In this document: one piece after another, positions 4,371-61,830 of the stretch
Numbering within the stretch: position 1 is the first letter of the stretch
Layout of the letters: every line of letters begins with the position of its first letter
From: Rugalucina vietnamica
Lineage: Eukaryota > Mollusca > Bivalvia > Lucinida > Lucinidae
Direction: 5' to 3'
NCBI GenBank assembly: GCA_964017185.1
Contig: OZ024869.1
Location: 58,120,761-58,184,760 of the forward strand
DNA: 64,000 bases
Translations under genes and position numbers: made by a program
Notes under the pieces: model-generated
Told to the model about the DNA's origin: nothing
The model's input: the letters and a program-made list of their open reading frames with translations, nothing else
Databases searched by the model: none

Positions 4371-5655
4371 TTAGCTCACCTGAGCCGAAGGCTCACAAGG
4401 TGAGCTTATAGGATGGCCATGATCCGGCGTCCGTCCGGCGTCCGTCGTCGTCCACAATTTCAAAGATCTTCTTCTCTGAAACCGCTTGGCCGATCTAGTT
4501 GAAATTTTATGTGGAGCCTCCTTGGGTAGTGGCATTGTAATTTTGTTCGCGATATCTTGGTCACATTACCAAGATGGCCGCCACACCCATATATGGTAAA
4601 AACACTTCAAAAATCTTCTTTTCCAGAACCGGTGGGCTGATTTCCACAAAACTTGGTATGTAGCATCGGGGACTTCAGCCCATCGTAGTTTGATAAAATG
4701 ATGACCCTTGGATGACCTTGACCTATTTTACGGCAAGGTCAAATTTGGAAACATAGGCTTTTTCATGGGAAAAAAGTGAAAACTATGGATTTTTTGAAAA
4801 CTGTTGCAGCCTGAGGCCTGAAAAGTGGTAGATACAAACAACTAATGGAGCAGATGAAGGTATGTGATTAATATAGGTCAAGGTGATCTTTTGACCTTGG
4901 CCAGTCAGTCGTCCATACACACTTTTCAAAGATCTTCTTTTCTGAAACTGCTTGGCCAATCAAAGTGAAATTTTATGTGGAGCATCCATGGGTAAGGGAG
5001 ATGAAAGTTTGATCGCGAAATCCAGGTCACATGACCAAGATGTCCGCCACGCCCATATATGGTAAAAACCACTCAAAAATCTTCTTCTCCAGAACCGGCT
5101 GGCTGATTTTCGCGAAACTTGGTATGTAGCATTTGGGACTCCAGCCCATCATAGTTTGATCAAATGATGACCTTGACCTATTTTACGGCAATGTCAAGTG
5201 GTAGATGCAAACAACTAATGGAGTAGATGAAGGTATGTGATTAATTTAGGTCAAGGTCATCTCTTGACCTTGGCCAGTCTGTCATCCATACACACTTTTC
5301 AAAGATCTTCTTCTCTGAAACTGCTTGGCCAATCAAAGTGAAATTTCATGTGGAGCATCCATGGGTAGGGAAGACAAAAGTCTGATCGCAAAATTCAGGT
5401 CACATGACCAAGATGGCCGCCAGGCCCATACATGGTAAAAACCACTGAAAAATCTTCTTCTCCAGAACCGGCAGGCCGATTTTCATGAAACTTGGTATGT
5501 AGCATTTGGGACTCCAGCCCATCGTAGTTTGATCAAATGATGACCATAGGATGACCTTGACCTATTTTACGGCCGCCATGCCCAACTATGGTAAAAACCA
5601 CTCAAAAATCTTCTCCAGAACCGGCTGGCCGATTTACGCGAAACTTGGTATGTAG

Positions 5656-7383
5656 CAATTTTCTAGGCTTATTACACTGAATAAAAATTAATTCAGAAGG
5701 AAGAATTATCATTTAAAGAGCATAAAATTTGAATCCATATCTCTTTTCCTCCTCATTCAGTTCCTATCTTCACTTTCTCAGGCGGGGGTGAAGCTGTCCA
5801 GGGCGGTTTATCTCGCGCCCCACCTAGGTATTGGAGGATAAAATTTTCTAGGCTTATTACAACTATTTCAAATTAATACCTTAAGAAGTTTTAACTGCAA
5901 TCTATTTTATTATCAAGACCTTTTCCTCGTATTTCCATTCTATACCCTCAGTTATAAAGGTGGGGATGAAGCTGTCCAGGGCGGTTTATCTTGCCCCCCG
6001 CCATATCTCATTTCCTCCTTGCCCCCCGCCTATGTATTGGAGGATCAATTTTTCGAAGCTTGTTACACTGTTTCAAAATTAATACCATAAGAATGTCTAC
6101 CTTTTGGAATTGCAATTTATTTGATTAAAAAGCCCTTTTCATCGTCATTCAGTTTTTTACCCTCAATTACATAGGCGGGGGTGAAGCTGTCCAGCGTGGT
6201 TTATCTCGCCCCCCGCCTATGTATTGGATGATAAAATTTTCTAGGCTTATTACACTGATTAAAAATTAATTCCGTAGGAAGAATTATCAGTTAGAAGTGC
6301 ATTTAGTTTGAATACATATCTCATTTCCTCCTCATTCAGTTCCTATCTTCACTTTCACTGGCGGGGGTGAAGCTGTCCAGGGCGGTTTATCTCACCCCCC
6401 GCCTATGTATTGGATGATAAAATTTTCTAGGCTTATTACACTGATTAAAAATTAATTCCGTAGGAAGAATTATCAGTTAGAAGTGCATTTAGTTTGAATA
6501 CATATCTCATTTCCTCCTCATTCAGTTCCTATCTTCACTTTCACAGGCGGGGGTGAAGCTGTCCAGGGCGGTTTATCTCGCCCCCAGCCTATGTATTGGA
6601 TGATAAAATTTTCTAGGCTTATTACACTGATTAAAAATTAATTCAGAAGGAAGAATTAAGGAAGAATTATCAGTTCAGTTAAAGTGCATTAAGTTTGAAT
6701 ACATATCTCTTTTCCTCCTCATTCAGTTCCTATCTTCACTTTCACAGGCGGGGGTGAAGCTGTCCAGGGCGGTTTATCTTGCCCCCCGCCTAGGTATTGG
6801 AGGATCGATTTTTCGAAATTTGTTACACTGTTTCAAAATTAATACCATAAGGTCTACCTTTTAGAAATGCAATTTATTTGATTAAAAAGCCCTTTCTCTG
6901 GTCATTCAGTTTTTTACCCTCAGTTGAAGCTGTCCAGGGCGGTTTATCACCCCCCGCCTATGTATTGGATGATAAATTTTTCTAGGCTTATTACACTGAT
7001 TAAAAATTAATTCTGTAGGAAGAATTATCAGTTAGAAGTGCATTTAGTTTGAATACATATCTCATTTCCTCCTCATTCAGTTCCTATCTTCACTTTTTCA
7101 GGCGGGGGTGAAGCTGTCCAGGGTGGTTTATCTCGCCCCCCGCCTATGTATTGGATGATATAATTTTCTAGGCTTATTACACTGATTAAAAATTAATTCA
7201 GAAGGAAGAATTATCAGTTAAAGTGCATTAAGTTTTAATACATATCTCTTTTCCTCCTCATTCAGTTCCTATCTTCACTTTCTCAGGCGGGGGTGAAGCT
7301 GTCCAGGGCGGTATTTCTCGCCCCCCGCCTATGTATTGGATGATAAAATTTTCTAGGCTTATTACACTGATTAAAAATTAATT
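5656..7383 (+). repeat. Satellite array 1, ~180-bp unit, nine cores
   Basis: Tandem units of about 175-200 bp carry a GC-rich core of ~40 bp (GGCGGGGGTGAAGCTGTCCA, then GGGCGGTTTATCTCGCCCCC) at about 5788, 5963, 6175, 6360, 6545, 6747, 6922, 7101 and 7287. The A/T-rich spacer is also conserved (TTTTCTAGGCTTATTACACT, then ATTTCCTCCTCATTCAGTTC). The core begins with GGCGGGGG and ends with CCCCCCGCC, so it is a partial inverted repeat. The array is embedded in a family A element. Confidence 0.85.
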
Positions 7384-7497
7384 GTACAAATGATGGTGAA
7401 GAAAAAAAAATCAACATCAAAAACCTGGGTGGGGGGCGAGATAAACTGCCCTGGACAGGTTACCCCCCACCCATGTACCAGCAATTAGTTTCACTTT

Positions 7498-8511
7498 TTA
7501 TCGCACCTGCTTATAGCAGAGTGCGATATAGGAGTCCAAATTTCCGTCCGTCCGTCCATCCGTCCGTCCGCCCGTCCGTTCGTCCGTCCGTCAACATTTT
7601 TGTCGAAGTTTGGTTTTCTCTACATAAGTGATAGCTAGGATTGTGAAACCTTGCATAGTAATTGTCCTTGACATACCCTTCAAGCACGCACCTTGACCCG
7701 CTGACCTTGACCTATATTTCACGGTACATTGACTTTGTTAATTTTTACGTCGAAGTTCTGTTTTCTCTGCATCAGTGATAGCTGTGAGTGTGAAACCTTA
7801 CATATTAATTGTCCTTGACATACCCTTCAAGCACGCACCTTGACCCGCTGACCTTGACCTATATTTCACGGTCCATTGACTTTGTTAATTTTTACGTCGA
7901 AGTTTGGTTTTCTCTGCATCAGTGATAGCTAGGATTGTGAAACCTTGCATAGTAATTGTCCTTGACATACCCTTCAAGCACGCACCTTGACCCGGTGCCC
8001 TTGACCTATATTTCACGGTCCATTGACTTTGTTAATTTTTACGTCGAAGTTCCGTTTTCTCTGCATCAGTGATAGCTAGGATTGTGAAACCTTGCATAGT
8101 AATTGTCCTTGACATACCCTTTAAGCATGCACCTTGACCCGCTGACCTTGACCTATATTTCACGGTCCATTGACTTTGTTATTTTTTATGTTGAAGTTTG
8201 GTTTTCTCTGCATCAGTGTTAGCTGTGAGTGTGAAACCTTGCATAGTAATTGTCCTTGACATACCCTTCAAACACGCACCTTGACCCGCTCACCTTGACC
8301 TTTATTTCTCGGTCCATTGACTTTGTGAATTTTTACGTCAAAGTTTTTTTTTTCTGCATCAGTGATAGCTGCAAGTGTGAAACCTTGCATAGTAAAAGTC
8401 CTTCACATACCCTTTCAGAACACACCTGAACCTGGTGCCCTTGACCTATATTTCACGTTTTTAGTTATTTTGCCCGATGCAGGTGCGATATCCACCTCCG
8501 CGGAGTTCTTG
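7498..8511 (+). mobile_element. Family D Helentron-like non-autonomous element
   Basis: The 5' end is TTATCGCACCTGC with a hairpin (TATCGCA ... TGCGATA, loop with GCTTATAGC), followed by a CCGTCCGTCCGT microsatellite. The body is about six tandem ~167-bp modules (GAAACCTTGCATAGTAATTG ... CTGACCTTGACCTATATTTC). Near the 3' end GCAGGTGCGATA is an exact 12-bp inverted copy of the 5' end. It is followed by the palindrome CTCCGCGGAG and the terminus TTCTTG, then TTT. It is inserted in satellite array 2, whose unit resumes on the right with AACATTGAAAACAAG. No transposase is encoded. Confidence 0.82.
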
Positions 8512-10217
8512 TTTAACATTGAAAACAAGTTTATACTAGGACTTGTCTTGTGATTTTAAAAAGGTACAAGTAGGCAAAGATCAGGAAAAGGTGCAATCAG
8601 AAAAAGATTCCCACCCCAAAAACTGCTGTTTTAAATCCACTTTTATTTTATATCAAGGTGGTTCAAATGATGGTGAAGAAAAATAAAATCAACATAAAAA
8701 ACCTGGGTGGGGGGCGAGATAAACCGCCCTGGACAGGTTGCCCCCCACCCATGTACCAATTATTTTCTTTTTTCTGTCATTGAAAACAAGTTTATTGGAC
8801 TTGTCTGGTGATTTGAAATCTACTTTTATTTTATATTTAGGTTGTACAGTTGATGGTGAAGAAAAAAAAATCAACATCAAAAACCTGGGTGAGGGGCGAG
8901 ATAAACCGTCCTGGACAGGTTACCCCCCACCCATGTACCAATTAGTTTCTTCTTTTCCGACATTGAAAAAAAGTTTATAGGGCTTGTCTTGTGATTTTAA
9001 AGCCACTATGATTTTATATTAAGGTTGTTCAAGTGATGGTGAAGAAAAAAATATCAACATCAAAAACCTGGGTGGGGGTCAGTTCAAACCCCCCTGGACA
9101 GGTTACCCCCCACCCTTGTACCAATTACTCTTTTCTGACATTGAAAAAAAGTTTATAGGACTTGTCTTGTGATTTTAAATCTACTTTTATTTTATATCAA
9201 GGTGGTTCAAATGATGGTGAAGAAAAAAAATCAACATCAAAAAACCTGGGGGGGGGGGGGGAGAGATAAACCACCCTGGACAGGTTGACCCCCACCCAGG
9301 TACCAATTTTTTTTTCTATTCTTCTGACATTGAAAACACGTTTATAGGACTTGTCTTGTGATTTTAAATCTACTATTATTTTATATTTAGGTTGTACAAA
9401 TGATGGTGAAGAAAAAGATCAACATCAAAAACCTGGGTGGGGGGGCGAGATAAACCGCCCTGGACAGGTTACCCCCCACCCTTGTAAAAATTAGTTTCTT
9501 CTTTTCTGACACTGACAAGTTTAAAGGGCTTATCTTGTGATTATAATCCAATATTATTTTATATTAAGGTTGTTCAATTGATGGTGAAGAAAACAAAATC
9601 AACATAAAAAACCTGGGTGGGGGGCGAGATAAACCGCCCTGGACAGGTTGCCCCCCACCCATGTACCAATTATTTTCTTTTCTCTGTCATTGAAAACAAG
9701 TTTATAGGACTTGTCTTGTGATTTTAAATCCACTTTTATTTTATATTTAGGTTGTACAAATGATGGTGATGAAAAAAATCAACATCAAAATCCTGGGTGG
9801 GGGGCGAGATAAACCGCCCTGGACAGCTTACCCCCCCCCACCCATGTACCAATTAGTTTCTTCTTTTCTGACATTGAAAAAAAGTTTGTAGGGCTTGTCT
9901 TGTGAGTATAAAGCCAATACTTTTTTATATTAAGTTGTTCAAGTGATGGTGCAGAAAAAAATATCAACATCAAAAACCTGGGTAGGGGTCAGTTCAAACC
10001 GCCCTGGACAGGTTACCCCCCACCCTTGTACCAATTAGTTTCTTCTTTTCTGACACTGGAAACAAGTTTATAGGGCTTATCTTGTGATTTAAATCCAATA
10101 TTATTTTATATTAAGGTTGTTCAAGTGATAGTGAAGAAAAAAAAACAACATCAAAAACATGGTGGGGGCCAAGATAAACTGACCTGGACAGGTTACCCCC
10201 CACCCTAATACCAATTA

Positions 10218-10984
10218 CAGCGATGTAGATAATTATTTTTTACAATGCGTACTGTACGCATCAAATTAAATGTACAGTGCGTACCGACAATACAACTGTG
10301 TACACGTTTTCTGAGGATTCTTATTCTAACTCAAACTTATAGATATGTGTACACGTATGGTAAGGTCATGTATTCAAGTATGAAGTTCAAGTAAACTGGT
10401 TGAAAATCCTGTAATTATAGGTTATTCTATCATTTAGGCATGTTAAACCATACATTTGTCCCCTGCATATAGATAATAAGAGAGAAAAATGACGAAAACA
10501 TGATAAACTGGGATGACTGAAGAACATGAAATACATCAAGTTAAATTGAAAACAATGACCATAAATCGATGCAAAATGTCTATTCAATGACACACTAACA
10601 TTAAACTTCATGAATAAACCTTTGGTAAACAATGTGTCTGACCGAGGCAATTAACGGAGGGCACGTATATGGTATAACTACTGAAGATACATATCATGTT
10701 CGTATGATTGCATAATGTGTAATATGGAACGATCAAAAACTGGATAAATATTGTAACTACTTTTCAATTATTGGCAGAGCAGCCAGACAAAATAAGTTGA
10801 AAATTGATTGTCATTTTGTAACAAATTTAAAGATATTTTTATCTGAGTACGCATAAAACCGAAACCTGTTTGCGTACCGCTGATTTTTACTGCGTACATG
10901 GTACGCACAGGTCTTAATTTCTTATGCGTACAGAGCGAAAAATCGTGCGTACATACGCAGTACGCATCGTTATCTACATCGCTG
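10218..10984. mobile_element. hAT-like non-autonomous TIR element, copy 1
   Basis: The ends are CAGCGATGTAGATAA and its inverse TTATCTACATCGCTG, flanked by AATTA on both sides (10213-10217 and 10985-10989). The element interrupts a satellite unit at ...ACCAATTA. Subterminal DNA is packed with TGCGTAC/GTACGCA motifs at both ends, as expected for transposase binding sites. CAG...CTG ends suit the hAT group, but the 5-bp duplication is shorter than the usual 8. A related copy lies at 42093-43379. There is no transposase ORF. Confidence 0.75.
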
Positions 10985-12603
10985 AATTACATGTAGTTTC
11001 TTCTTTTCGGACATTCAAAACTAGTTTATAGGACAAACTTGTCTTTTGATTGAAATCCAATATTATTTCATATTAAGGTTGTACAAATGATGATGAAGAC
11101 AAAGAATATCATCATCAAAGTGTGGGTCGGGGGTTAGATAAACCGCCCTGCACAGGTTACCCCCCCCCCCCCCCCCCCCCAATCCTTGTACCAATTATTT
11201 TCTACTTTTCCGACACTGAAAACAAGTTTATAGGATCTGTTTATACCCCCCGCAAAACAAAGTTTTAGGGGGGTATACTGTTTTCAGCCTGTCCGTGATT
11301 CCGTAATTCCGTCATTCCGTCAACATTTTGACATCTTTGCTGAATAACTTAAGTAGTTTTTGCCCGATGTTCTTCAATTTTTCAACACACCTGCACCATT
11401 AGACAACACATGTGTGATATGAATTTAGGGGCCAAAGGGTCAGTTTTGCAAGAGTTATGGGACTTTTTAAACATATACATAGAATGTTTGCCATAGTGCT
11501 AATAGTGCATACTTTGTGAAATCAACTCCTCCTACAGCTTTCAATATTCTCTTTTGATACTTTGCAGATATGTGCCAGATATATTGAAGATATGCATGAA
11601 GAAGTATTATGCTGAAAAAATGAATTTTGACAAATTTACAGCATTTTGAACTTAGCCAATTTTCGATAATTGCCATATTCAATAATGGTTGGTAGTGCAT
11701 AGTTTGTGAAATCAACTCCTCCTAGGGCTTTCAGTATTTCTTTTCAATACTTTGCAGACATGTTCCACACATATTGAAGATGTGCATGAAGAATTACAAT
11801 GCTGAAAAAAATAATTTTTGACAAATTTACATTATTTTTCAACATAGTCATTTCTTGACCATTGCTTATATACAATAATGGTTGGGAGTTCATAGTTTGT
11901 GAAATCTACTCCTCCTAGGGCTTTCAGTATTTCTTTTTAATACTTTGCAGACATGTTCCACACATATTGAAGATGTGCATGAAGAATTATAATGCTGAAA
12001 AAATAATTTTTGACAAATTTACAGCATTTTTTAACATAGCCATTTTTTGACCATTGCTTATACAACAATGGTTGGTAGTGCATATTTTGTGAAATAAACT
12101 CCTCCTAGGGCTTTCAGTATTTCTTTTCAATACTTTGCAGACATGTTCCACACATATTGAAGATGTGCATGAAGAATTATTTATAATGCTGAAAAAAAAA
12201 TAATTTTTGACAAATTTACAGCATTTTTCAACATAGCCATTTTTTGACCATTGCTACAGTAATGGTTGGTAGTGCATACTTTGTGAAATCAACTCCTCCT
12301 AGGGCTTTCAGTATTTCTTTTCAATACTTTGCAGACTTGTCCCTCACATATTGAAGATGTGCATGAAGAATTATAATACTGAAAAATTAATTTTTGACAA
12401 ATTTACAGCATTTTTAACATAGCCATTTTTTGACCATTGCTTATATACAGTAATGGTTGGTAGTGCATACTTTGTGAAATCAACTCCTCCAAAGGCTTTC
12501 AGTATTTCTTTTCAATACTTTGCAGACATGTTCCTCACATATTGAAGATGTGCATGAAGAATAATAATACTAAAAAAATAATTTTTGACAAATTTACAGC
12601 ATT

Positions 12604-15600
12604 TTAGCTTACCTGAGCCGAAGGCTCACAAGGTGAGCTTATAGGATGGCCATGATCCGGCGTCCGTCCGTCCGTCGTCCGTCCGTCGTCCGTCGTCCAC
12701 AATTTCAAGGATCTTCTTCTCTGAAACCGCTTAGCATATCTAGTTGAAATTTTATGTGGAGCCTCCTTGGGTAGTGGCATTTCAAGTTAGATCGCGAAAT
12801 CCAGGTCACATGACCAAGATGGCCGCCACGCCCATATATGGTAAAAACCCTTCAAAAATCTTCTTCTCCAGAACCAGTGGGCCAATTTCCACGAAACTTG
12901 GTATGTAGCATTGGGGACTTCAGCCCATCATAGTTTGATAAAATGATGACTTGGATGACCTTGACCTATTTTACCTCAAGGTCAAATTTGGAAACATAGG
13001 CTTTTACATGGGAAAAAGTGAAAACTATGGATTTTTTGAAAACTGTTGAGGCCTGAGGCCTGAAAAGTGGTAGATGCAAACAACTAATGGAGTAGATGAA
13101 GGTATGTGATTAATTTAGGCCAAGGTCATCTCTTGACCTTGGCCAGTCTGTCATCCATACACACTTTTTAGCTCACCTGAGCCGTCAGGCTCACAAGGTG
13201 AGCTTATAGTATACCCATGCTCCGTCGTCCGTCCGTCCGTCGTCCGTCCGTCCGTCGTCCACCATTTTCAAAGATCTTCTTCTCTGAAACAGCTTGGCCA
13301 ATCAAAGCCAAATTTTACATGAAGCATCTATGGGAAGGGGGAACCAATGTGTATATAAATAATCCAGGTCACATGACCAAGATGGCCGCCATGCCCATAT
13401 ATGGTAAAAACCCTTCAAAGATCTTCTCCGGAACCACTGGACCGATTTCAACCAAACTTGGCATGAATCATCGATGACTCAAGTACTACAATGTATATAT
13501 AAATCATGATCTTGCGATGACCTTGACATATTTTACGGCAAGGTCAACATAGGTCGCCTTTGCATTTGAATGGGAAAAATTGTTAAATTGTCATTTAAAG
13601 GAAAAATCTTGCAGAAAATGAGCAGTAGGACTGAATATTAATGATTCTGAAAAAAATTGGACCCCAGGGGCTCATATGCCCCCACCCCGGGGCAATATAC
13701 ATGTATATTACCATAATATTCAAACATCATCTCCTCTGAAACCGCTTGGCCAATCAAAGCCAAATTTTATGTGAAGCATCAATAGGAAGAGATAATTAAT
13801 GTATATATAAATAATCCAGGTCACATGACCAAGATGGCTGCCATGCCCATATATGGTAAAACCCCTGCAAAAATCTTCTTTAGAACCAGTGGACTGATTT
13901 CAACGAAACTTGGCATGAAGCATCGATGGCTCAAGCACTACAATGTATATATAAATCATGACCCTGTGATGACCTTGACCTGTTTTACGGCAAGGTCAAC
14001 ATAGGTCGCCAATGCATTTGAATAGGGAAAACTTTTAAAATGTCAATTAAAGTGATAGTCTTGCAGGAAATGGGCAGTAGGACTGAATATTAATGATTTT
14101 GACACAAGTTGGACCCCAGGGGCTCATCTGCCCGCACCCCGGGGCAATATACATGTATATTACCATAATATTCAAACATCTCCTCTGAAACCGCTTGGCG
14201 AATCAAAGCTAAATTTTATGTGAAGCATCTATGGAATGGGGGAATTAATGTATATATAAATATTATCTAGTTCACATGGCCAAGATGGCTGCCATGCCCA
14301 TATATGGTAAAACCCCTGCAAAAATCTTCTTCTCCGAATCTGGTGGACCGATTTCAAAGAAACTTGGCATGAAGCACCAATGGCTGAAGTACTACAATGT
14401 ATATATAAATCATGACCCTGTGGTGACCTTGACCTATTTTACGACAAGGTCAACATAGGTCGCCAATGCATTGGAATGGGGAAAACTTTTAAAAAGTCAT
14501 TTGAGGTGAAAATCTTGCAGGAAATGGGTAGTAGGACTAAATATTAATGATTCTGAAAAACAAATTGGACCTTAGGGCTCATATGCCCACACCCTCATAT
14601 ACATGTATATTACCATAATATTCAAACATCTTCTCCTCTGAAACCACTTGGCCAATTGAAGCCAAATTTTATGTGAGGCATCTATAGGATGGGGAAACCA
14701 ATGTATATATTAATAATGTAGGTCACATGACCAAGAGGGAGGCCATGCCCATATATGGTAAAAACCCTTCAAATATCTTCTTCTCTGAAACCAATAGATT
14801 GATTTCAACGAAACTTGGCGTGAAGCATCCATGGCTAAAGTACTACAATAAATATATAAATCATGACCCTGTGATGACCTTGACCAAGTTTATGGCAAGG
14901 TCAACATGGGTTGCCCATGCATTTGAATGGGAAAAACTGTTTAAATGTCATTTTAAGGGAAAAACCAGCAAGAAATTGGCAAATGGACAGAATATTGAGT
15001 ATTCTGAAAAAAGAAAAACGGCCCAGGGTCTTCAAAAGCCCCTGCACTGGGGTTAAATACCATAATATTCAAACATGTTTATTGGTATATGCAGCAGACT
15101 CAGGTGAGCGTTTACAGGACCATTGGTCCTCTGGTCAAAGATCTTCTTCTCTGAAACTGCTTGGCCAATCAAAGTGAAATTTTATGTGGAGCATCCATGG
15201 GTAGGGGAGACGAAAGTTTGATTGCGAAATCCAGGTCACATGACCAAGATGGCCGCCATGCCCATATATGGTAAAAACCACTCAAAAATCTTCTTCTCCA
15301 GAACCGGCTGGCCGATTTTCATAAAACTTGGTATGTAGCATTTGGGACTCCAGCCCATCATAGTTTGATCAAATGATGACCATAGGATGACCTTGACCTA
15401 TTTTACGGCAATGTCAATTTGGAAACATAGGCTATTACATGGGAAAAAGTGAAAACTATGGATTTTTTGAAATCTATTGCAGCCTGAGGCCTGAAAAGTG
15501 GTGGATGCAAACAACCAATGGAGTAGATGAAGGTATGTGATTAATTTAGGTCAAGGTCATCTCTTGACCTTGGCCTGTCTGTCGTCCATACACCCTTTTC

Positions 15601-16686
15601 AAAGATATTCTTCTCTGAAACTGCTTGGCCAATCAAAGTGAAATTTTATGTGGAGCATCCATGGGTAGTGGAGACGAAAGTTTGATCGCGAGATCCAGGT
15701 CACATGACCAAGATGGCCGCCACACCCATATATGGTAAAAACCACTCAAAAATCTTCTTCTCCAGAACCGGCAGGTTGATTTTCATGAAACTTGGTATGT
15801 AGCATTTGGGACTCCAGCCCATCATAGTTTGATCAAATGATGACCCTAGGATGACCTTGACCTATTTTACGGCAATGTCAATTTTGGAAACATAGGCTTT
15901 TACATGGGAAAAAGTGAAAACTATGGATTTTTTGAAAACTGTTGCAGCCTGAGACCTGCAAACAACTAATGGAGTAGATGAAGGTATGTGATTAATTTAG
16001 GTCAAGGTCATCTCTTGACCTTGGCCAGTCTGTCGTCCATACACACTTTTCTAAGATCTTCTTCTCTGAAACTGCTTGGCCAATCAAAGTGAAATTTTAT
16101 GTAGAGCGTCCATGGGTAGGGGGAACGAAAGTGTGATCGCAAAATTCGGGTCACATGACCAAGATGGCCTCCATGCCCAACTATGGTAAAAACCACTCAA
16201 AAATCTTCTTCTCCAGAACCGGCTGGTCGATTTAAGCGAAACTTGGTATGTTGCATTTGGGACTCCAGCCCATCATAGTTTGTTGAAATGATGACCATAG
16301 GATGACCTTGACCTATTTTACAGCAAGGTCAATTTTGGAAACATAGACTTTACATAGGAAAAGGTAAACTATTGCAGCCTGAGACCTGAAAGTTGCTAGA
16401 TGCACACAACTAAAGGAGTCAATGAAGGTAAGTAATTAATGAAGGCCAAGGTCATTTGTTGACCTTGACCCAAGGTCATTTAAATATCAAAATTAAAATT
16501 ATGGTTTTCTCAGAAATCACTGGGTTTGGAAACTATTGCAGCCTGAGACCAGAAACTTTGCAGATGCAGACAACTTGTGAAGTCAATAAAGGTGTGTGAG
16601 TATTCAAGGTGAAGGTCATTTCATGATGACTTAATACTCCAAGATCAGGCTTTAGGTGAGCGTTCTCAGGACCAATGGTCCTCTGG
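12604..16686 (+). mobile_element. Family A Helentron-like element inside family E
   Basis: The 5' end is TTAGCTTACCTGAGCC with hairpin partner GGCTCACAAGGTGAGCT; the 3' end is CTTTAGGTGAGC, AGGACCAATGGTCCT, CTGG at 16686. The host sequence is the E module: left flank ...ACAGCATT, right flank TTTAACATAGCC. The uninterrupted module (for example near 12400) reads ACAGCATTTTTAACATAGCC, so the insertion lies exactly between two Ts without duplication. Internal A modules of ~450-590 bp are repeated. A second complete A element (13168-15134) is nested in it. Confidence 0.85.
13168..15134 (+). mobile_element. Family A Helentron-like element nested inside another A element
   Basis: The 5' end is TTAGCTCACCTGAGCCGTCA with hairpin, then a CGTCCGTCC microsatellite and four A modules. 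The 3' end is CTCAGGTGAGCG, AGGACCATTGGTCCT, CTGG. The left flank ...ACACTTT and right flank TCAAAGATC together give ACACTTTTCAAAGATC, which is exactly the uninterrupted A sequence at 5291-5306. This fixes the ends as TTAGC...CTGG with a T|T target and no duplication. Short ORFs rich in INHDPVMTL, GKNPSKIF and similar strings are translations of the repeat, not genes. Confidence 0.88.
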
Positions 16687-16801
16687 TTTAACATAGCCAT
16701 TTTTTGACCATTGCTTATATACAATAATGGTTTGTGAAATCAACTCCTCCTAGGCCTTTCAGTATTTCTTTTCAATACTTTGCAGACATGTTCCACACAT
16801 A

Positions 16802-35116: not shown

Positions 35117-35138
35117 TTTAATGACGTTTAATCAGAGT

Positions 35139-35423: not shown

Positions 35424-35548
35424 TTCCAGTGATCGATTCGCTTAATGAAATATGGTGGAAACGTTTTTATTTATATCCCCGAATATAAGCACTGTTTATT
35501 TAGTAGATTACTTTGCCCAGTTCCGCTTTTTTAAGTTACTGATTATTC

Positions 35549-40152: not shown

Positions 40153-40154
<2 letters not shown>

Positions 40155-49590: not shown

Positions 49591-52300
49591 TACATGTAGT
49601 TGCTGTATGCCTGGAGGATTAAAGGAAACTGCAAACGAATTACTGAATTACAGAATTAAGACCATATCATGAAATTTAACCTGCCCAGACGGACACTTCT
49701 ACAGTATGATACATTAGAAACTATGTTGAGAACAACAGACACATACTTTAATATCTTAAAAATAAAATTTCTTCTAAATCACTTACCTGATAAAAACATA
49801 TACTAGCCGTATATAGCCTTTATCATTTTTCTGTCCATGATTGGTCTATTTTCCCCTCATGTCTTCTACCTAATCGTCCTCTAGACCACTTTCCATCAAT
49901 GTTTTTGCACTGTCCTCTTCCTGTTAGTAATTCTCTGCTACTTGTCTGTTCTTTATTAGCTCACCTGAGCCGAAGGCTCACACCTGAGCCAAAGGCTCAC
50001 AGGTGAGCTTATAGTATACCCATGCTCCGTCGTCCGTCGTTGTCCACACTTTTCAAACATCTGCTCCTCTGAAACCGCTTGGCCAATCAAAGCCAAACTT
50101 CATGTGGAGCATCCTTAGGTAGGGGGAACGAAAGTTTGTATAAATGGTCTAGGTCACATGACCAAGATGGCCGCCATGGCTATAAAAAGCAAAAACCTTT
50201 AAAAATCTTCTTCTCCAGAACTAGAAGGCGTATGATCTTGAAACTTGGCATGAAGCATCAGGCAATCAAGCCCTATAAAGTTTATATAAATCATGACCCT
50301 AGGATGACCTTGAACTAATTTACGGCAAGGTCATCTTAGGTCACCCATGCATTTGAATGCGGAAAATTGTTAAAATATGATTTGAAGGGCAAATCTTGCA
50401 GGAAATGGGCAAATGGACAGAAAATTTATTTTTATGAGCAAATTTTGTCTCCAGGCGGTTACCTGCCCCTGCCCCGGGGCTATATACATGTATATGACCA
50501 TAATATTCAAACATCTCCTCCTCTGAAACCGCTTGGCCAATCAAAGCCAAATTTTATGTGGAGCATCATTAGGAAGGGGCAATGAAAGTTTGTATAAATG
50601 GTCAAGGTCACATGACCAAGTTGGCCTCCATGGCTATCAATAGTAAAAACCTTTAAAAATCCTCTTCTCCAGAACCAGAAGGCCTATGATTTTGAAACTT
50701 GGCATGAATCATCATGAAATGGAGCTCTACAAAGTTTTTATAAATCATGACCCTTGGATGACCTTGACCTATTTTTCGGCTAGGTCAACTTAGGTTGCCC
50801 ATGCATTTGAATGGGGAAAATTATTAAAATGTCATTTGAAGGGCAGAACTTGCAATAAATTGACAAATTGACTGAATTTTTATGATTTGAAAAAGAAATT
50901 GACTCCAGGGTTTGCTCTGACCGTGCCCTGGGGTTATATACGTGTATATTACCATTCTAGTCAACCAAGTTTATTGTTATATATCTCAGGTCTCAGGTGA
51001 GCGTTTACAGGACCATTGGTCCTCTGGGTCTTCAAATTTCTAGTTTGTAATCATCTGATATCTTAGATGTTTGAAGATTACTTCAGATTTAATTTTTGTT
51101 TGCTTTTCAAAATAATGTGCAACAGGAAAAGGAAGCAAGGTCAGAGGTCATTCAAAATAATGTGCAACAGAAAAAGGAAGCAAAGTCAGAGGTCATGCGA
51201 TTATGGGTAATGTGGTTATTGGCAGGGCTCGGGAAATTTTTATTTCCCAATCGGTCCAGCCAACTGACAACGTCACCAGAGACGTATAAACACACATGTC
51301 AAAACCATCACACAGTCGTTAAAACTAATGACATTTCACTACTGAAAATATCCATTGTAATTTGGCTGAAATTTCAGTGCAAAAATACCCCCTCATTTCA
51401 CTGAAATTTCAGAGCTATATCACTGAAATTTCAGTGCTTTATCACTGGAGTTTCAATGAATTTTAGTGCTATATCACTGAAATATCACTTAAATTTCAGT
51501 GTAAAAATTCCCCCTTATTTCTTTGAAATTTCAGTAGTAAACTACTGAAATTTCAGCGATACAGCACTGAAATTTTAATGATTTTCAGTGGCACTGAAAT
51601 TTCAGTGAAATATCACTGAAATTTCTGTGGAATCACTGCCAGACATCTAGTTGCAATAAGCCTGGAGGATTGTTTATAAAATGCAAACAAATTCGAAGAG
51701 TATAGTATAAATAAACAAACATATTCATTTAACACTAAAGTTCTTTTATGATAACTGCCTGTACACTAGCTTTACCAGTTTTGCTTCCACTTGGCTTTCC
51801 ATCCACTTTGGTTTTTGGTTTTCAAGGTCTGATGGGACTGACTTGTGAGGTGTGTCTTTGAGAGGTAAGGGGTGGGGGAAGTTGGTTGCATTTTGCATTT
51901 ACCTTCTTGGCTGTTCCAATAGCCTATGTGCATTGCAAGGATTTGCCTGTACCCAGAAAGGAAAAGGCACCTGGTCAAATGTCTCTGAATTACAGAATTA
52001 GACCAAATTATGAAATCTAACCTGCCTGAGCTAGACACTTCTACAGTGATAAATGGGAAACTGTTGAGAACAACATGCACATATTTTAATATCTTAAAAA
52101 TAAAATGTATTCTCTCTTCTATTCTCTTTCTGAACTTGTCTGCTGTTTAGTCTTCAAATTTCTAGTTTGTAGCCTTTCAGATGATTTGTTGAGATAAGAT
52201 TTTTGCTTGCTTTTTTAAAATTATCAAAATTATGTAAACAAGAAAAGGATGTAAGGTCAAAGGTCATGGGATTATGGGTAATGTGGTTATTGCTCATGTT
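49590..52300 (+). repeat. Imperfect segmental duplication interrupted by a family A element
   Basis: Blocks of 49595-49770 and 51028-51240 recur at 51640-51700, 51985-52110 and 52150-52300 in the same order. Examples are AGCCTGGAGGATT, GAATTACAGAATTA, TTAATATCTTAAAAATAAAA, GTCTTCAAATTTCTAGTTTG and GGGATTATGGGTAATGTGGT. The second copy lacks the A element and ~150 bp near its left side. It provides an empty site for the insertion at 49956. Confidence 0.7.
49956..51027 (+). mobile_element. Family A Helentron-like element with a paralogous empty site
   Basis: The 5' end is TTAGCTCACCTGAGCCGAAG (the first hairpin arm is partly duplicated: CACCTGAGCCAAAGGCTCAC), then a CGTCGTCCGTCGT microsatellite and two ~450-bp modules. 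The 3' end is CTCAGGTGAGCG, AGGACCATTGGTCCT, CTGG. Flanks TTTA (left) and GTCTTCAAATTTC (right) are joined as TTTAGTCTTCAAATTTC at 52146-52162 in the duplicate, with no target duplication. Confidence 0.86.
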
Positions 52301-52623: not shown

Positions 52624-53957
52624 TCACGGCTAACAAACCTTTAAATGCGTAACCGCGGTTAAGAAAAGAAATCCGATTCATGTCCTTCCGGTTTCGCATC
52701 AGATGACCAACAAAAGGTAAACAAACTTTTGCAGCTCGTGTTTCCGAGTAAAATATTTCGATTTGAAGACAAATATTATAATTCTCTCAATGCTATTTTA
52801 TTAGTTAGACATTGCTATATTTGGACCCCAAAGGATTTCCAGAAATTTTTCTTTATAATCATGATTTTTATTCCCTACCCCAAAACACATGTTGGGATTG
52901 CATTGTACACGACTAAAATGTGGGTCAGTCGCAGGGATATTTTTAGATTTCCGTTCATTATGTCCATATTAACGGAAAGCAATGCAGTGCGCAGATGATT
53001 TTAACATTGTGTGAGGTCTGGTGACAGTTTCGTTGCCTCTGGCCAATGCATTCTATGCATATGTGGTTAAAAGCTGTGTCAACATTTCGGTTACGAATTT
53101 AATCATTAGAATGATAGCAATATAGTCATTATAGAACACATGTAATAAAGTTTTTGTTTTTGTTAATTGTTTTACGCTGAAGATTATTGTCACATTCTCT
53201 CGTCCTTTCTTAATAGTTGCTTACTCAAATTTTGTGTGTTTGTGATATTTGCAGTGAAAATGTTTGATATAAAATAATACAAACTGTCTATGAAATACAT
53301 GTTATACAATAGTTCACATGCATGATAATCCTTTCGTGAAGACGATTTTACAGCATTCTGTATACTTTGATTTGTTTTTTCTTGGTTTTATGTCTTTCAA
53401 AACGCTTTACAGGGAAATAAATACCATAACTTGAACAGGTTGAGGTTTTCAAACGTATCTTGAAATATATCCTTCATATTTTAATTATTAAATGCGTACC
53501 CATCTTTTCCTTCCCTTCAAATCGATAATGACGGGCACTAACACAACGAAATACTGGCACAGACATCAGGTGCAATTTAATTAATACATATCTGTAAATT
53601 TGTCGTGGAACAATCACTAAAATTTGATATTAACCAGCAAATTGTCCAATTTTTAGTTGTATTTCGCCGACTTTGGCCTTGTTGGAACACCAGGTTCGAA
53701 GAAGGGAATAAATAACTCAAAGACCATCAAATTATTTTGCGAGCTACTTTGGTGCTGAGTTACAATAGTAAATAAGTGACAAAATAGCATTCATAGATAA
53801 TCGATATATTTCTGTACTAAAATATAATCATCAATCGATCTTAGTAGTGTATGTTTTGTTTACCTTTTCTTGGTCTTCATATGCGGAACCGGAAGGGCGT
53901 GAATCGGATTTTCTTTCTTAACCGGTGGTTACGCATTTAAAGGTTTGTTAGCCGTGA
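52624..53957. mobile_element. TIR element with ~100-bp inverted ends
   Basis: The left ~105 bp (TCACGGCTAACAAACCTTTA ... AGAAATCCGATTCATG ... AAAGGTAAACAAAC) is repeated in inverse at 53850-53957 with a modest number of differences. No target duplication could be seen. The 1.1-kb interior has an 89-codon ORF (from 52729) without recognisable motifs. Long TIRs and no transposase suggest a non-autonomous element of unknown superfamily. Confidence 0.72.
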
Positions 53958-54029: not shown

Positions 54030-55382
54030 AGGTTCCTGAATGCAGTTGCTCCCCTGGAACGAAAGTTTATATAAATGGTCCAGGTCACATGACCAAGATG
54101 GCCGCCATGGCTATAAATAGCAAAAACCTTTAAAAATCTTCTTCTCCAGAACCAGGGGGCCGATTTCCACGAAAGTTGGTATGTAGCATCGGAGACGCGG
54201 GCCCATCATAGTTTATATAAATCATGACCCTGGATGACCTTGACCTATTTTACGGCAAGGTCAAGTTAGGTCACCAATGCATTTGAATGGGAAAAAATGG
54301 TAAAATGCTATTTAATGGGTAAAACTTACTGGGAATAGGCAAATGGACAGAAGATTAATGTTAATGGAAAATTTTAGCCCCTGGGGGGTTGTCTGCCCCT
54401 GCCCCGGGGCTATATACATGTAAATTTCCATAATAATGAAACATCTCCCCTGAAACCGCTTGGCCAATCAAAGCCAAACTTCATATGGAGCATCCTTGGG
54501 AAGGGGGAAAGAAAGTTTATATAAATGGTTAAGATGGCCACCATGGCTATAAATAGAAAAAAAACTTTAAAAATCTTCTTCTCAAGAACCAGAAGGCCTA
54601 TAATTTTGAAACTTGGCATGAAGCATCAGGCAATGGAGCTCTACAAAGTTCATATAAATCATGACCCTGGGATGACCTTGACCTTTTTTATAGCAAGGTC
54701 AACTTAGGCCGCCCATGCATTTGAATGGGAAAAAATAGGAAAATGTCATTTAATGGCAAAAAACTTGCTAAGAATGAGCAAATGGACAGAAGATTTATGT
54801 TTATGAAAATATTTTGGGCCCAGAGGGTTGTCTGCCCCTGCCCCGGGGCTATATACATGTGTATGACCATAATATTCAAACATCTTCTTCTCTGAAACCT
54901 CTTGGTCAATCAAAGCCAAACTTTATGTGGAGCATTATTAGGAAGAGTGAATGAAAGTTTATATAAATGGTCAAGGTCACATGACCAAGATGGCCGCAAT
55001 GGCTATTAATAGCAAAAACCTTTGAAAATCTTCTTCTCCAGAACCAGAAGGCCTATGATTTTGAAACTTGGCATGAAGCATCAGGCAATGAAGCTCTACA
55101 AAGTTTATATAAATCATGACCCTTGGATGACCTTGACCTTTTTTACGGCAAGGTCAACTTAGGTTGCCCACGCATTTGAATGGGGAAAATTTGAAGGGCA
55201 AAACTTGCAGTAAATTGGCAAATGGACTGAATCTTTATGATTTAAAAAAGAAATTGACTCCAGAGGTTGCTCTGACCCTGCCCTGGGGTTATATACATGT
55301 ATATTACCATTCTAGTCATACAAGTTTATTGGTATATATCTTGGGTCTCAGGTGAGCGTTTACAGGACCATTGGTCCTCTGG
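54030..55382 (+). mobile_element. Family A Helentron-like element, 5'-truncated
   Basis: It starts abruptly in an A module (GGAACGAAAGTTTATATAAA) without the 5' hairpin. Three modules follow, and it ends in the standard terminus (CTCAGGTGAGCG, AGGACCATTGGTCCT, CTGG at 55382, then TTT). The left limit is approximate. Confidence 0.75.
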
Positions 55383-55539: not shown

Positions 55540-56851
55540 TTAGCTCACCTGAGCCATCCATCTGTCCGTCCACAATTTCAAAGATCTTCTCCTCTGAAAC
55601 CCCTTGGCCAATCATAGCCAAATTGATGCATCAATAGGAAGGGGTAACCAATGTGTATATAAATTATCCAGGTCACATGACCAAGATGGCCGCCTGATGC
55701 CCATATATGGTAAAAACCCTTCAAAAATCTTCTCCGGAACCGATGGACCAATTTCAACGAAACTTGGCCTGAAGTATGGATGACTCAAGTACTCAAGTAC
55801 TACAATGTATGTATAAATCATGACCCTGTGATGACCTGGACCTATTTTACGGCAAGGTCAACTTAGGTCGCCAATGCATTAGAATGTATATACCATAATA
55901 TTCAAACATCTCCTCTGAAACCGCTTGGCCAATCAAAGCCAAATTTTATGTGAAGCATCTATAGAATGGGGGAATCAATGTATATATGAATAATGTAGGT
56001 CACATGACCAAGATGGCTGCCATGTCCATATATGGTAAAAAACCCTTCAAAAATCTTCTCCGGTGGACCTATTTTCAAAGAAACTTGGCATGAAGCATCA
56101 ATGCCTAAAGTACTACAAGGTATATATAAATCATGACCCTGTGGTGACCTTGACCTATTTTACGACAAGGTCAACATAGGTCGCCAATGCATTTGAATGG
56201 GGAAAACTTTTAGGTGAAATCTTGCAGGAAATGGGCAATAGGACTGAATATTAATGATTGTGAAAACAAAATTGGACCCAAGGGCTCATATTCCCCCACC
56301 CCGGGGCAATATACATGTTTATTACCATAACATTCAAACATCTTCTCCTCTGAAACCACTTGACCAATTAAAGCCAAATTTTATGTGAAGCATCTTTAGG
56401 ATAGGGAAACCAATGTGTATATTAATAATCTAGGTCACATGACCAAGATGGCCGCCATGCCCATATATGTTAAAAACCCTCCAAAAATCTTCTTCTCTGA
56501 AACCAATGGACTGATTTCAAGTACAACGAAACTTGGCGTGAAGCATTGATGGCTAAAGTACTACAATGTATATATAAATCATGACCCTGCGATGACCTTG
56601 ATTCAGTTTATGGCAAGGTCAACATGGGTTGCCTGTGCATTTGAATGGGGAAAACTGTAAAAATGTCATTTGAAGGGGAAAACCAGCAGGAAATTGGCAA
56701 ATGGACAGAATGTTGATTATTCTGAAAAAAGAAAATGGCCCAAGGGCTTCATCTGCCCCTGCACTGGGGTTAAATACCATAATATTCTAACATTTTTATT
56801 GGTATATGCAGCAGATCTCAGGTGAGCTTTACAGGACCATTGGTCCTCTGG
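55540..56851 (+). mobile_element. Family A Helentron-like element
   Basis: The 5' end is TTAGCTCACCTGAGCCATCC, where the second hairpin arm is missing and only a short CCGTCC remnant of the microsatellite is left. Three modules follow, ending CTCAGGTGAGC, AGGACCATTGGTCCT, CTGG at 56851, then TT. It appears to be a complete copy with a 5' deletion. Confidence 0.8.
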
Positions 56852-57543: not shown

Positions 57544-59087
57544 TTAGCTCACCTGAGCCGTCAGGCTCACAAGGTGAGCTTATAGTATACCCATGCTCCG
57601 TCGTCCGTCCGTCCGTCGTCCGTCGTCCGTCGTCCGTCCGTCCGTCCGTCCGTCGTCCACACTTTTCAAAGATCTTCTCCTCTGAAACCGCTTGGCCAAT
57701 CAAAGCAAAATTTTACATGAAGCATCTATGGGAAGGGGGAACCAATGTGTATATAAATAATCCAGGTCACATGACCAAGATGGCCGCCATGCCCATATAT
57801 GGTAAAAACCCTTCAAAAATCTTCTTCTCCGGAACCACTGGACCGATTTCAACCAAACTTGGCATGAAGCATTAATGGCTCAAGCACTACAATGTGTATA
57901 TAAATCATGACCCTATGATGACCTTGACCTATTTTACGGCAAGGTCAACATAGGTCGCGAATGCATTTGAATGGCAAAAATTGTTAAATTGTCATTTAAA
58001 GGAAAAATCTTGCAGAAAATGAGCAGTAGGACTGAATATTAATGATTCTGAAAAAAATTGGGCACCAGGGGCTCATCCGCCCCCACCCCGGGGCAATATA
58101 CATGTATATCTCCATAATATTCAAACATCTTCTCCTCTGAAACCGCTTGGCCAATCAAAGCGAAATTTTATGTGAAGCATCAATAGGAAGGGGTAACAAA
58201 TATGTATATAAAAAATCCAGGTCACATGACCAAGATGGCCGCCATGCCCATATATGGTAAAAACCCTTCAAAAATCTTCTTCTCCGGAACCACTGGACCG
58301 ATTTCAACGAAACTTGGCACGAAGCATCGATGGCTCAAGCACTACAATGTGTATATAAATCATGACCCTGTGATGACCTTGACCTATTTTACGGGAAGGT
58401 CAACGTAGGTCACCAATGCATTTGAATGGGGAAAACTTTTAAAATGTCATTTAAAGTGAAAGTCTTGCAGGAAATGGGCAGTAGGACTGGATATTAATGA
58501 TTCTGAAAAAAATTGGACCCCAGGGGCTCATGTGCCCCCACCCCGGGGCAATATACATGTATATTTCCATAATATTCAAACGTCTTCTCCTCTGAAACCT
58601 CTTGGCCAAACAAAGCCAAATTTTAAGTGAAGCATCTATAGAATGGGGGAATCAATGTGTATATAAATAATCTAGGTCACATGACCAAGATGGCCGCCAT
58701 GCCCATATATGGTAAAAACCCATCAAAAATCATCTTCTCTGAAACCAATAGACTGATTTCAAGGAAACTTGGCGTGAGGCATCGATGGCTAAAGTACTCA
58801 AATGTATATATAAATCATGACCCTGTGATGACCTTGACCAAGTTTATGGCAAGGTCAACATGGGTTGCCTGTGCATCTGAATTGGGAAAACTGTTAAAAT
58901 GTCATTTGAAGGAAAAAGCCAACAGGAAATTGGCAAATGGACAGAATATTGAAGATTCTGAAAAAAGAAAATGGCCCAAGGGCTTATCTGCCCCTGCACT
59001 GGAGTTAAATACCATAATATTCAAACATGTTTATTGGTATATGCAGCTGATCTCAGGTGAGCGTTTACAGGACCATTGGTCCTCTGG
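57544..59087 (+). mobile_element. Family A Helentron-like element, head of an abutting pair
   Basis: The 5' end is TTAGCTCACCTGAGCCGTCA with hairpin and a long CGTCCGTCC microsatellite (57598-57658). Three modules follow, with terminus CTCAGGTGAGCG, AGGACCATTGGTCCT, CTGG at 59087. The next element starts at the very next base. Confidence 0.88.
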
Positions 59088-60690
59088 TTAGCTCACCTGA
59101 GCCGTCAGGCTCACAAGGTGAGCTTATAGTATACCCATGCTCCGTCGTCCGTCCGTCCGTCGTCCGTCCGTCCTTCGTCCACCATTTTCAAAGATCTTCT
59201 TCTCTGAAACAGCTTGGCCAATCAAAGCCAAATTTTACATGAAGCATCTATGGGAAGGGGGAACCAATGTGTATATAAATAATCCAGGTCACATGACCAA
59301 GATGGCCGCCATGCCCATATATGGTAAAAACCCTTCAAAAATCTTCTTCTCCGGAACCACTGGACCGATTTCAACCAAACTTGGCATGAAGCATCGATGA
59401 CTCAAGTACTACAATGTATATATAAATCATGACCCTGTGATGACCTTGACCTATTTTAAGGCAAGGTCAATATAGGTCGCCAATGCATTTGAATGGGGAA
59501 AACTTTTAAAATGTCATTTAAAGTGAAAGTCTTGCAAGGAAATGGGCAGTAGGACTGAATATTAATGATTCTGAAAAAAATTGGACCCCAGGGGCTCATG
59601 TGCCCCCACCCTGGGGCAATATACATGTATATCTCCTAAATATTCAAACGTCTTCTCCTCTGAAATCGCTAGGCCAATCAAAGCCAAATTTTATGTGAAG
59701 CATCAATAGGAAGGGGTAATCAATGTGTATATAAATAATCCAGGTCACATGACCAAGATGGTCACCATGCCTATATATGGTAAAAACCCTTCAAAAATCT
59801 TCTTCTCCAGAACCAGTGGATCAATTTCAACGAAACTTGGCATGAAGCATCGATGGCTCAAGCACTCCAATGTGTATATAAATCATGACCCTGTGATGAC
59901 CTTGACCTATTTTACGGCAAGGTCAACATAGGTCGCCAATGCATTTGAATGGGGAAAACTTTTAAAAAGTCATTTGAGGTGAAAATCTTGCAGGAAATGG
60001 GCAGTAGGACTGAAAATTAATGATTCTGAAAAAAATTGGACCCCAGGGGCTCATGTGCCCCCACCCCGGGGCAATATACATGTATATCTCCATAATATTC
60101 AAACGTCTTCTCCTCTGAAACCGCTTGGTAAATCAAAGCCAAATTTTATGTGAAGCATCTATAAAATGGGGGAATCAATGTGTATATAAATAATCTAGGT
60201 CACATGACCAAGATGGCCACCATGCCCATATACGGTAAAAACCCTTCCAAAATCTTCTACTCTGGAACCGGTGGACCATACAGGCCACGCCCCAGGCATG
60301 TCATTATCTACCATAGACTTATAATGGAAATATATGAATTTTTTTTCTCTGCAACAGCATGACACAAAGCTTGTATATTTGATATACAACATTGTCATGT
60401 GGAGCTCTACATAAATCCTGCCAATCTTGCCCCTGGGGTCAAATATAGCCCCACCCCCGGGGTCATTATAGGACCCTGCCCTTGTTAGATGATTTTTTCA
60501 AGTGAACCAAAATGGCAGAAAAGAGGATACACAATCCAGACAAGAGCTCTTCTGCTGATGTAAGTAGCGTTTCAAGGTCACATGACCAAGATGGCCACCA
60601 TACCCATATATGGTAAAAACCCCAATTACTTTGTCCAGTGACTGTACTTGTTGACTCTCAGGTGAGCGATTGTTGCCCTTGGGCTACTTG
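59088..60690 (+). mobile_element. Chimeric Helentron-like element: family A start, family C end
   Basis: It starts TTAGCTCACCTGAGCCGTCA directly after the previous element and nearly matches the copies at 13168 and 57544. After ~60270 it departs from A sequence. 60270-60560 is other sequence that includes an exon-like segment (60512-60559), followed by a piece of A module. The 3' end is type C (CTCAGGTGAGCGATTG, GCCCTTGGGC, TACTTG, then TTT). This is best explained by read-through of the A end to a downstream C-type end. Confidence 0.7.
60512..60559 (+). other. Possible captured or native exon: MAEKRIHNPDKSSSAD
   Basis: ATG in good context (ACCAAAATGGC) opens 16 codons ending in a clean donor GAT|GTAAGT. 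The residues look like a protein N-terminus but no family is recognised. It lies within the chimeric element, so it may be a captured gene fragment. Chance is also possible. Confidence 0.25.
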
Positions 60691-61219
60691 TTTACCTCTG
60701 ATACCAAACAACCTCTGACAAGGGAACAAACGGTTACCCTGGGTGGTAATCATCTTTCTGTTACAAGAAATTTTCAGTCTAATCACTGAATACTGAATTC
60801 GATTAGTTTGTCAGGTAAAACTGTTCTTCTCTATTTTTTTTTCTTTACAAAAACAAAAATGTCCACAGAGATGGACTGCTTGCCTTTATTTAGTCTGGAT
60901 TAAATAAGTCAACAACATGACAACATGACAAGCATGATCCAGTGCTAGCCAGATAATTTTGGGCTCCAAGTAAGGTAGCCGCATGTTACCATTTTTACCA
61001 TCATGACATCCTGCTTGGGAAGTGGATCCTCTAACCACCAAGCTAAAAGATTACACCAGGCATAACTTTTACCAAGCCAAAGAGGCTTCTTCGAATATCT
61101 ATTTGACTTACACTTTTATATACCAGCATAATAATAACTATTTTTGTGGCCAGATAAACAGTCTCTCTCAACAAAGAATATCGTACATACACTAATAAAA
61201 AGTATGTTTTTATTTTCAG
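60691..61219. other. Interval without a recognised feature
   Basis: Unique-looking A/T-rich sequence with T and A tracts near 60835. No repeats or ORFs of note. Confidence 0.5.
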
Positions 61220-61250
61220 AATATGGAACACCTGGAATCAGGAAACAAAT
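61220..61250 (+). other. Possible 31-bp micro-exon
   Basis: The acceptor TTTTATTTTCAG ends at 61219 and a consensus donor GTAAGTATT starts at 61251. The enclosed 31 bp read NMEHLESGNK in the frame that would follow a codon-complete upstream exon such as 60512-60559. Splice signals are good, but 31 bp is too short for coding evidence. Confidence 0.3.
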
Positions 61251-61328
61251 GTAAGTATTGTACAGGTGGTTCACTTCATCAGTCAAGCCTGTATCCAACT
61301 GATAAAGTTATATACAGGGGTCCACCTC

Positions 61329-61830
61329 CTTTTAGCTTAGCTCCCTGAACTGAAGTCTTACAGGTGAGTTTATGGTATACCCATGCTCCGGCATCCATCA
61401 TTGTCTGTTGTTCACAATTTCAAACATCTTCTCCGCCAAAACTGCTAGCTTAATCAAAGCTTAACTTCACATGGAGCAGGGGGAACGAAAGTTTTTATAA
61501 ATGGTCCAGGTCACATGACCAAGATGGCTGCCATGGCTGTAAATAGCAAAAACCTTTAAAAATCATTTCCAGAACCAGAAGGCCTATGATTTTGAAACTG
61601 GGCATGAAGCATCAGGCAATGGAGCTCTACAAAGTTTGTATAAATCATGACTCTGGAAAGACCTTGACCTATTTTATGGCTATGTCAACTTAGGTCGAAA
61701 ATGTATTTGAATGGGGAAAATGAGTAAAATGTAATTAAATAGGGGGAAATTTGCTGGGAGTATGCAAATGGGCAAAAGATTTATGTTTATGTAAAATCTC
61801 ATGTGGTCTGGTCAGCTAAAAAAATAGATT
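61329..61830 (+). mobile_element. Family A Helentron-like element, decayed, 3' end missing
   Basis: A degenerate 5' end (TTTTAGCTTAGCTCCCTGAA ... TACAGGTGAGTTTATGGTAT) is followed by one A module (CAGGTCACATGACCAAGATG, GACCTTGACCTATTTTATGG). It fades out near 61830 without a terminal hairpin. Confidence 0.7.

Follow-up and report, generated by a model that had tools for sequence, protein, structure and literature searches.

Probable non-autonomous Helentrons in uniform orientation, and a candidate autonomous partner, in a 64-kb stretch of the Rugalucina vietnamica genome

What has filled this stretch of a bivalve genome, and by what means did it move? We analysed 64,000 nucleotides of the lucinid Rugalucina vietnamica (assembly GCA_964017185.1, contig OZ024869.1, forward-strand positions 58,120,761 to 58,184,760), hereafter the window, in which a first-pass annotation made from the letters alone had described five families of elements, A to E, that differ in sequence and follow one structural grammar. 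Our favoured reading, with a probability of about 0.9, takes these elements for non-autonomous Helentrons (HINEs), which fill the stretch, part of it a zinc-finger gene intron, and in places lie nested.

Scanning for fixed motifs located 12 5′ ends and 14 3′ ends, and direct reading of the sequence raised the 3′ count to 15 with the end at 56851, where 1 bp is deleted. The elements are listed below in window coordinates. A1 and A2 are groups within A, AC joins A1 to C, and X carries a Helentron-type open reading frame (ORF).

1-2544, + strand: element X, truncated by the window start; ORF at 3-1379 and an A2-type 3′ end, CTCTGG then TT
2545-3562, + strand: A2 element, 3′ part, host of the X insertion; its 5′ part lies beyond the window
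4373-19518, + strand: A2 element; 5′ end and modules at 4373-~5656, 3′ part at ~19020-19518
7500-8511, + strand: D element; TT then ATCGCACCTGC ... CTTG then T; 147-bp modules
11243-18627, + strand: E element; TT then ATACCCCCCGCAAAA ... CTAG then T; 190-bp modules; interrupted by an A2 element and a terminal-inverted-repeat (TIR) element
12606-16686, + strand: A2 element with decayed tips, nested in E
13170-15134, + strand: A1 element nested in A2 12606-16686; five paralogous empty sites, TT added
21212-24759, + strand: C element; A-type 5′ end, its own 161-bp modules and the C 3′ module; interrupted by a TIR element
25304-28868, + strand: B element; 146-bp modules; interrupted by a TIR element
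35870-37159, + strand: B element in a retroelement terminal repeat; 168-bp modules; TT added relative to an empty site in the other repeat
49958-51027, + strand: A1 element; TT added relative to a short empty site at 52134
54056-55382, + strand: A1 element, 5′-truncated
55542-56851, + strand: A1 element, damaged 5′ hairpin
57546-59087, + strand: A1 element, complete
59090-60690, + strand: AC element; A1 5′ end and body to ~60278, C terminal 63 bp at 60628-60690
61339-61797, + strand: decayed remnant of A type, with 5′ end and body

The A2 element at 4373-19518 is interrupted by a large G/C-rich array that bears D and E, and we infer that its two halves belong to one element. A short D-like fragment on the + strand (30098-30161) was left out of the insertion count.

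The shared plan is as follows. TT precedes all 12 recognised 5′ ends. A two-step hairpin forms in 8/8 of the 5′ ends that were folded as DNA (8 of the 12; six distinct sequences), with z against shuffled sequences of -4.8 to -8.0 in A, C, D and E and of -2.7 and -3.3 in the two B ends. Shuffles folded as well as the two B ends in 6/200 and 2/200 cases, and in none for the other groups. The outermost 5′ letters recur near the 3′ end as an exact inverted copy. Its length is 11 bp in A1 (12 in a single element), 11 bp in AC, 9 bp in C, 11 bp in B counting one flanking T, 12 bp in D and at least 15 bp in E; the E query was limited to 16 nt, and a 16-bp copy is visible in an exact motif search. In A2 the copy is 10 bp in the pair 4373/19518 and 6 bp in the decayed pair 12606/16686. 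It lies 21-30 bp inside the 3′ end in 11 of 12 pairs and 16 bp inside it in the decayed A2 pair. For comparison, the subterminal inverted repeat (subTIR) by which HINEs are recognised is about 11-15 bp, and the exact copies here are 9-15 bp or more in 11/12 pairs, C having only 9. Direct reading shows C(A/G)CCTG in the A/C, B and D tips, and the E tip is without it. The 3′ termini are CTGG, CTTA, CTTG, CTTG and CTAG, followed by T in 14 of 15 cases (the exception is A1 at 51027), and palindromes stand at the 3′ ends of A to D, nearly loopless in C and D.

Part of what had been listed for all five families was borne out: the 5′ hairpin starting TTA (A1 55542 excepted, where it is mostly lost), the inverted copy of the tip, the termini with their T, and the tandem internal modules, which we found in all five groups. 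The CGTCC-like microsatellite stood for A, B and D; C and E carry other units, CGTGCG and ATTCCGT respectively. Repeats like AGCTCACCTGAGC are common in bivalve genomes. As a separate observation, three of the eight A/C-type 5′ ends (4373, 49958 and 55542) are preceded by TTTATT and not by a plain T run, which could mark either a subfamily end or a preferred target.

The structural grammar is real and not a product of chance. A strict scan for a TT-A start, a 5-bp outer arm, a GC-rich 9-bp tip that recurs inverted within 8 kb, a 3′ hairpin and CTNN-T found seven starts on the + strand and none on the - strand. A single start came up among 200 order-1 shuffles, and 100 order-3 shuffles gave none, which rules out chance hairpins as the source of the grammar. 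An earlier, looser scan had been unspecific (18 starts on +, 5 on -; mean 5.5 and maximum 12 in 60 shuffles) and led us to tighten the filters; five of the 12 elements fail the strict version (E, A2 4373, A2 12606, A1 49958 and A1 55542). Decoys without the 3′ requirements gave 0/0 starts on the +/- strands for the reverse, 2/0 for the complement and 6/2 for the direct tip.

The insertion sites can be judged from paralogous empty sites. Joined flanks of 12 elements were used as queries against the window, and six had true spanning paralogues. The A1 element at 13170-15134 differs by exactly TT from five paralogous empty sites, the B element at 35870-37159 by TT from the uninterrupted copy of that retroelement's repeat, and the A1 element at 49958-51027 by TT from a 38-bp match. 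For the outer A2 element (12606-16686) the difference varies by a few T's, in line with the variable terminal T's of Helentrons (PMC4067079); D and E are the other two with empty sites. At the six informative sites in the window there was no target duplication beyond about two T's; neither TIR-type duplications nor ends lying off the hairpins, the two outcomes named beforehand as contrary to the class, were seen there. No paralogue was found in the window for the queries from C 21212, B 25304, A1 55542 (right boundary set 4 bp too far) and A2 4373 (placeholder boundary), and the spanning matches for A1 57546 and AC 59090 were dropped as artefacts of neighbouring copies.

Cut-and-paste miniature inverted-repeat transposable elements (MITEs), the first label given to the bivalve element Pearl, would have short inverted repeats and duplicate a TT target. 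Inverted tips do exist here, and two extra T's at the best empty sites are what a TT duplication would also give. However, the 3′ inverted copy is internal, 16-30 bp from the end, and not terminal; A1 49958 is without a T on its right side despite two added T's; and the whole plan is the HINE plan, HINEs having no target-site duplication (TSD) in the accounts available from PMC7492417 and PMC4067079. We therefore consider a MITE origin very improbable.

The HINE- or DINE-like class originally proposed is supported: the ends coincide with the hairpins at empty sites, no duplication beyond T's is seen, and the anatomy is a published one. Eleven Cg_HINE elements of the Pacific oyster Crassostrea gigas are described in PMC7492417 with subTIRs, a 5′ inverted repeat, a microsatellite, satellite-like repeats, a 3′ palindrome, a TT preference and no TSD. 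The elements here, likened to them by description and not by sequence, share the 5′ subTIR and inverted repeat, satellite-like modules, 3′ subTIR, palindrome (in A to D), T-rich or TT target and lack of a TSD. They also share the microsatellite (GTCY, GTCC or GTCK in several Cg_HINE) and the presence of several unrelated families per genome, with related ends around unrelated modules. Unlike Cg_HINE, a helicase-endonuclease ORF lies here upstream of a matching 3′ end, one body is joined to the 3′ module of another element, and the recognised copies in the 64 kb all point one way. The parallel grammar is thus already published for the oyster; the candidate partner and the uniform orientation go further.

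HINE-Mo and DINE-1, which share ends with Helentrons according to PMC4067079, likewise have subTIRs, an inverted repeat or palindromic subTIR, a 3′ stem loop, a microsatellite, a TT preference and terminal T's; they differ in their hosts and in that all five groups here have tandem modules. Pearl, DTC84 and MgE of bivalves, as described in PMC7492417, similarly place conserved ends around short tandem arrays. Canonical Helitrons (PMC4067079) have a 3′ palindrome and a 3′ CTRR that fits A (CTGG) and E (CTAG). They were nevertheless ruled out by the start TTA in place of 5′ TC, the CTTA or CTTG of B, C and D, and targets in T runs in place of A^T; the subTIRs are a further difference. The A/C 5′ pattern had no match in genome_contigs or viral_contigs and the A 3′ pattern none in viral_contigs, these being bacterial, archaeal and viral collections with little bearing on animals. 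Six end motifs searched in paper texts returned 13 papers, none of them on these elements as judged by title.

Which autonomous Helentron moves satellite-carrying mollusc HINEs is a question left unresolved in PMC7492417, so far as that text is available, and X offers a testable candidate. The same study counts ten autonomous elements in Repbase, none tied to the Cg_HINEs, and the available portions of PMC11136912 and PMC12628747 mention no bivalve HINE with a named autonomous partner, although PMC12628747 reports that parts of Helitrons lie inside other elements. The ORF of X gives ordered weak matches, the C-terminal part of a PIF1 helicase and then an endonuclease: PIF1 chains and Helraiser in PDB (E 0.0011-0.0023, residues ~148-231), Pif1_2B_dom (E 0.036) and Exo_endo_phos (E 0.0018, residues 275-449, below the Pfam cut-off). 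A structure model of the ORF was useless, with a mean predicted local distance difference test score (pLDDT) of 29.7. The protein had no confirmed relative in viral_contigs, and in the phages collection only two records of one phage matched, over a helicase (E 5e-3). Over its last 60 bp, the 3′ end of X is 85-88% identical to three other A2 ends. We infer that the ORF and this A2-type end form one element and, from these resemblances, that X is a candidate autonomous Helentron partner of A2. No autonomous partner for B, C, D or E was recognised within the window.

Several points weigh against this account of the locus. The evidence is confined to one 64-kb window. Compared with dinucleotide shuffles the 3′ ends have z of +0.2 to -1.7, with 0/8 clearly more stable (seven distinct sequences); C, D and E fold about equally to their shuffles, and E has no clear hairpin or palindrome. 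The small 3′ hairpin of the first-pass annotation was thus not upheld, and the feature is better named a palindrome because its folding is not clearly more stable than that of shuffles. The D and E junctions lie within T runs and cannot be fixed to a single base. As for X, its ORF has no match in PDB at E 0.001, the domain matches being weak, and the part of it inside the window has no Rep domain, which would precede the window start. The link to A2 comes from one locus, with the 5′ end of X beyond the window, and the 3′ end, at 2544, lies about 1.17 kb past the ORF stop.

Since the ORF and the 3′ end are that far apart, X may be two insertions, one of them a broken Helentron and the other an A2 tail that was truncated independently of it, and A2 would then be without a demonstrated partner. 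The non-coding DNA between stop codon and 3′ end speaks for this, as do three more A2 tails in the window. However, the tail of X is homologous to A2 over about 160 bp and then unrelated to the A2 body, with no such body upstream, and a blastn self-search with 1-2370 gave two short A/T-rich matches only and no HINE body. Moreover, the X 3′ end adjoins an A2 body at TT; the match of its right flank (2545-2570) to that body begins at the first T and is no longer than 26 bp. We consider two insertions less likely than a single element.

Comparison of the ends also bears on how many families there are. Identity over the last 60 bp is 84-95% within A1, 93-97% within A2, 97% between C and AC and 90% between the two B elements. 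Between groups it is 85-88% for X and A2, and 66-75% for A1 against A2 or X. Under the published naming rule of Thomas et al. (PMC4067079), these identities and the common A/C tip would give about four families with six 3′ subfamilies, A comprising A1 and A2, and C having A's 5′ end. The count is approximate because the B tip needs a flanking T to make up 11 bp and the C tip has 9 bp. Over 60 bp the C 5′ end is 78-85% identical to five A/AC ends, and 49-54% to the altered ends of A1 49958 and 55542. The number of families proposed at first, five, does not hold under this rule.

The AC element extends this picture. Its identity to A1 57546 is 92% as far as 60269, and A1-type similarity extends to 60278; about 350 bp of mostly other sequence follow, including a 51-bp A1-type piece (60572-60622), and the final 63 bp are the C terminal 63 bp at 96.8% identity. 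Five parallel versions with matched ends had been envisaged. Two tips do match in each element, but A and C share a 5′ end, AC is a chimera and A has two 3′ subfamilies. As C has an A-type 5′ end and AC joins A1 to C, "matched ends" is true of the tip and not of the whole end. In Fusarium, Helitrons are known to form chimeras and to insert in nested fashion (PMC5148889). Within AC, an open stretch from ATG at 60500-60555 is followed by GTAAGT and is perhaps a captured first exon.

We propose that a Helentron protein, a Rep-PIF1 helicase-endonuclease, would recognise the 5′ tip and hairpin, and that one strand would be peeled off by rolling-circle replication, halting at the 3′ subTIR and palindrome. 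The single strand would then be joined into a T run, so that the target is not duplicated and the only T's added are those of the element itself. The X ORF family would move A2, and perhaps A1 and C via the common tip, and 3′ modules could be exchanged upon bypass or recombination of the replication terminator.

All 16 recognised insertions lie on the + strand. A - strand search with 20 element segments gave no match at E 1e-3, although an unrelated - strand family would escape it; the strict grammar scan had no start on that strand either. The + strand has 25 copies of GTCCGTC, spread over eight elements, and the - strand has two. The two strands offer similar targets, with 692 T runs and 696 A runs of at least four, and 6962 TT and 7210 AA counted with overlaps. 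The two-sided p, if insertions are independent, is 3e-5 for all 16, 5e-4 for the 12 not directly nested in or abutting another HINE and 0.03 for the six with empty sites; the uniformity was noticed after the fact and in one window. Both orientations are reported for the oyster elements (PMC7492417), and we found no report of locally uniform Helitron or Helentron orientation in literature listings on the subject and in the available parts of PMC5371812, PMC5148889, PMC4067079 and PMC9674265.

Selection in a transcribed region, removing antisense copies, or tandem insertions that are not independent could produce such uniformity irrespective of the mode of insertion. At least one + strand gene is present (exons at ~3842-4044 and ~20676-20744), and AC 59090-60690 adjoins A1 57546-59087 with TT alone between them. 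On the other hand, the retroelement and the GIY-YIG ORF described below are on the - strand, the flanks differ among insertions, and the elements, 21,187 bp in total, contain poly(A) hexamers in slightly differing numbers, 13 sense and 18 antisense. We put the chances of this explanation at about even. It is at least as likely as an insertion model by analogy with IS200/IS605, which follow the direction of replication because they target the lagging-strand template (PMC5371812). Under that model, which we offer as a long shot, Helentrons might enter the genome in single-stranded form, at T runs that only one strand exposes, and their orientation might record the direction of the replication fork, or of transcription. 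This would be a eukaryotic counterpart of the IS200/IS605 rule, its Helentron part being a guess. Were uniform domains to hold genome-wide, animal rolling-circle insertion would be tied to the direction of replication or transcription.

Lastly, we describe the surroundings. GC content per 4-kb step is 35-44% across the window. The two exons of the + strand gene encode a zf-met zinc finger (E 1.7e-8), and the intron between them holds the HINE nest at 4373-19518. Rfam gave no match in the window at the gathering score, a tRNA search gave none, and the sole match in the NCBIfam search was a weak TraA. The other features are as follows.

5655-7500, 8629-11220 and 18630-19020: G/C-rich satellite arrays, two arrays of ~186-bp and ~182-bp modules in opposite orientation
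30276-37306, - strand: retroelement; RVT_1 at 2e-17 and a weak, sub-cut-off tyrosine-recombinase match
37800-38303, - strand: ORF with a GIY-YIG domain, E 4e-7
10218-10984, 16802-18110, ~21760-23660, ~25845-27792 and ~52625-53956: TIR elements

The satellite arrays have a common inverted core of about 65 bp, interrupt an A2 element and contain D and E; they may form a foldback-like element whose arms are satellites. The retroelement stands between direct repeats of about 466 bp that are 98-99% identical, and one of these repeats contains the B element at 35870-37159. The GIY-YIG ORF is presumably Penelope-like. Four of the five TIR elements sit within HINEs or a satellite array; their flanks, read directly, are TA at 16802-18110 and AATTA at 10218-10984, and a diverged second copy of the latter element, judged by its ends, lies at ~42093-43379.

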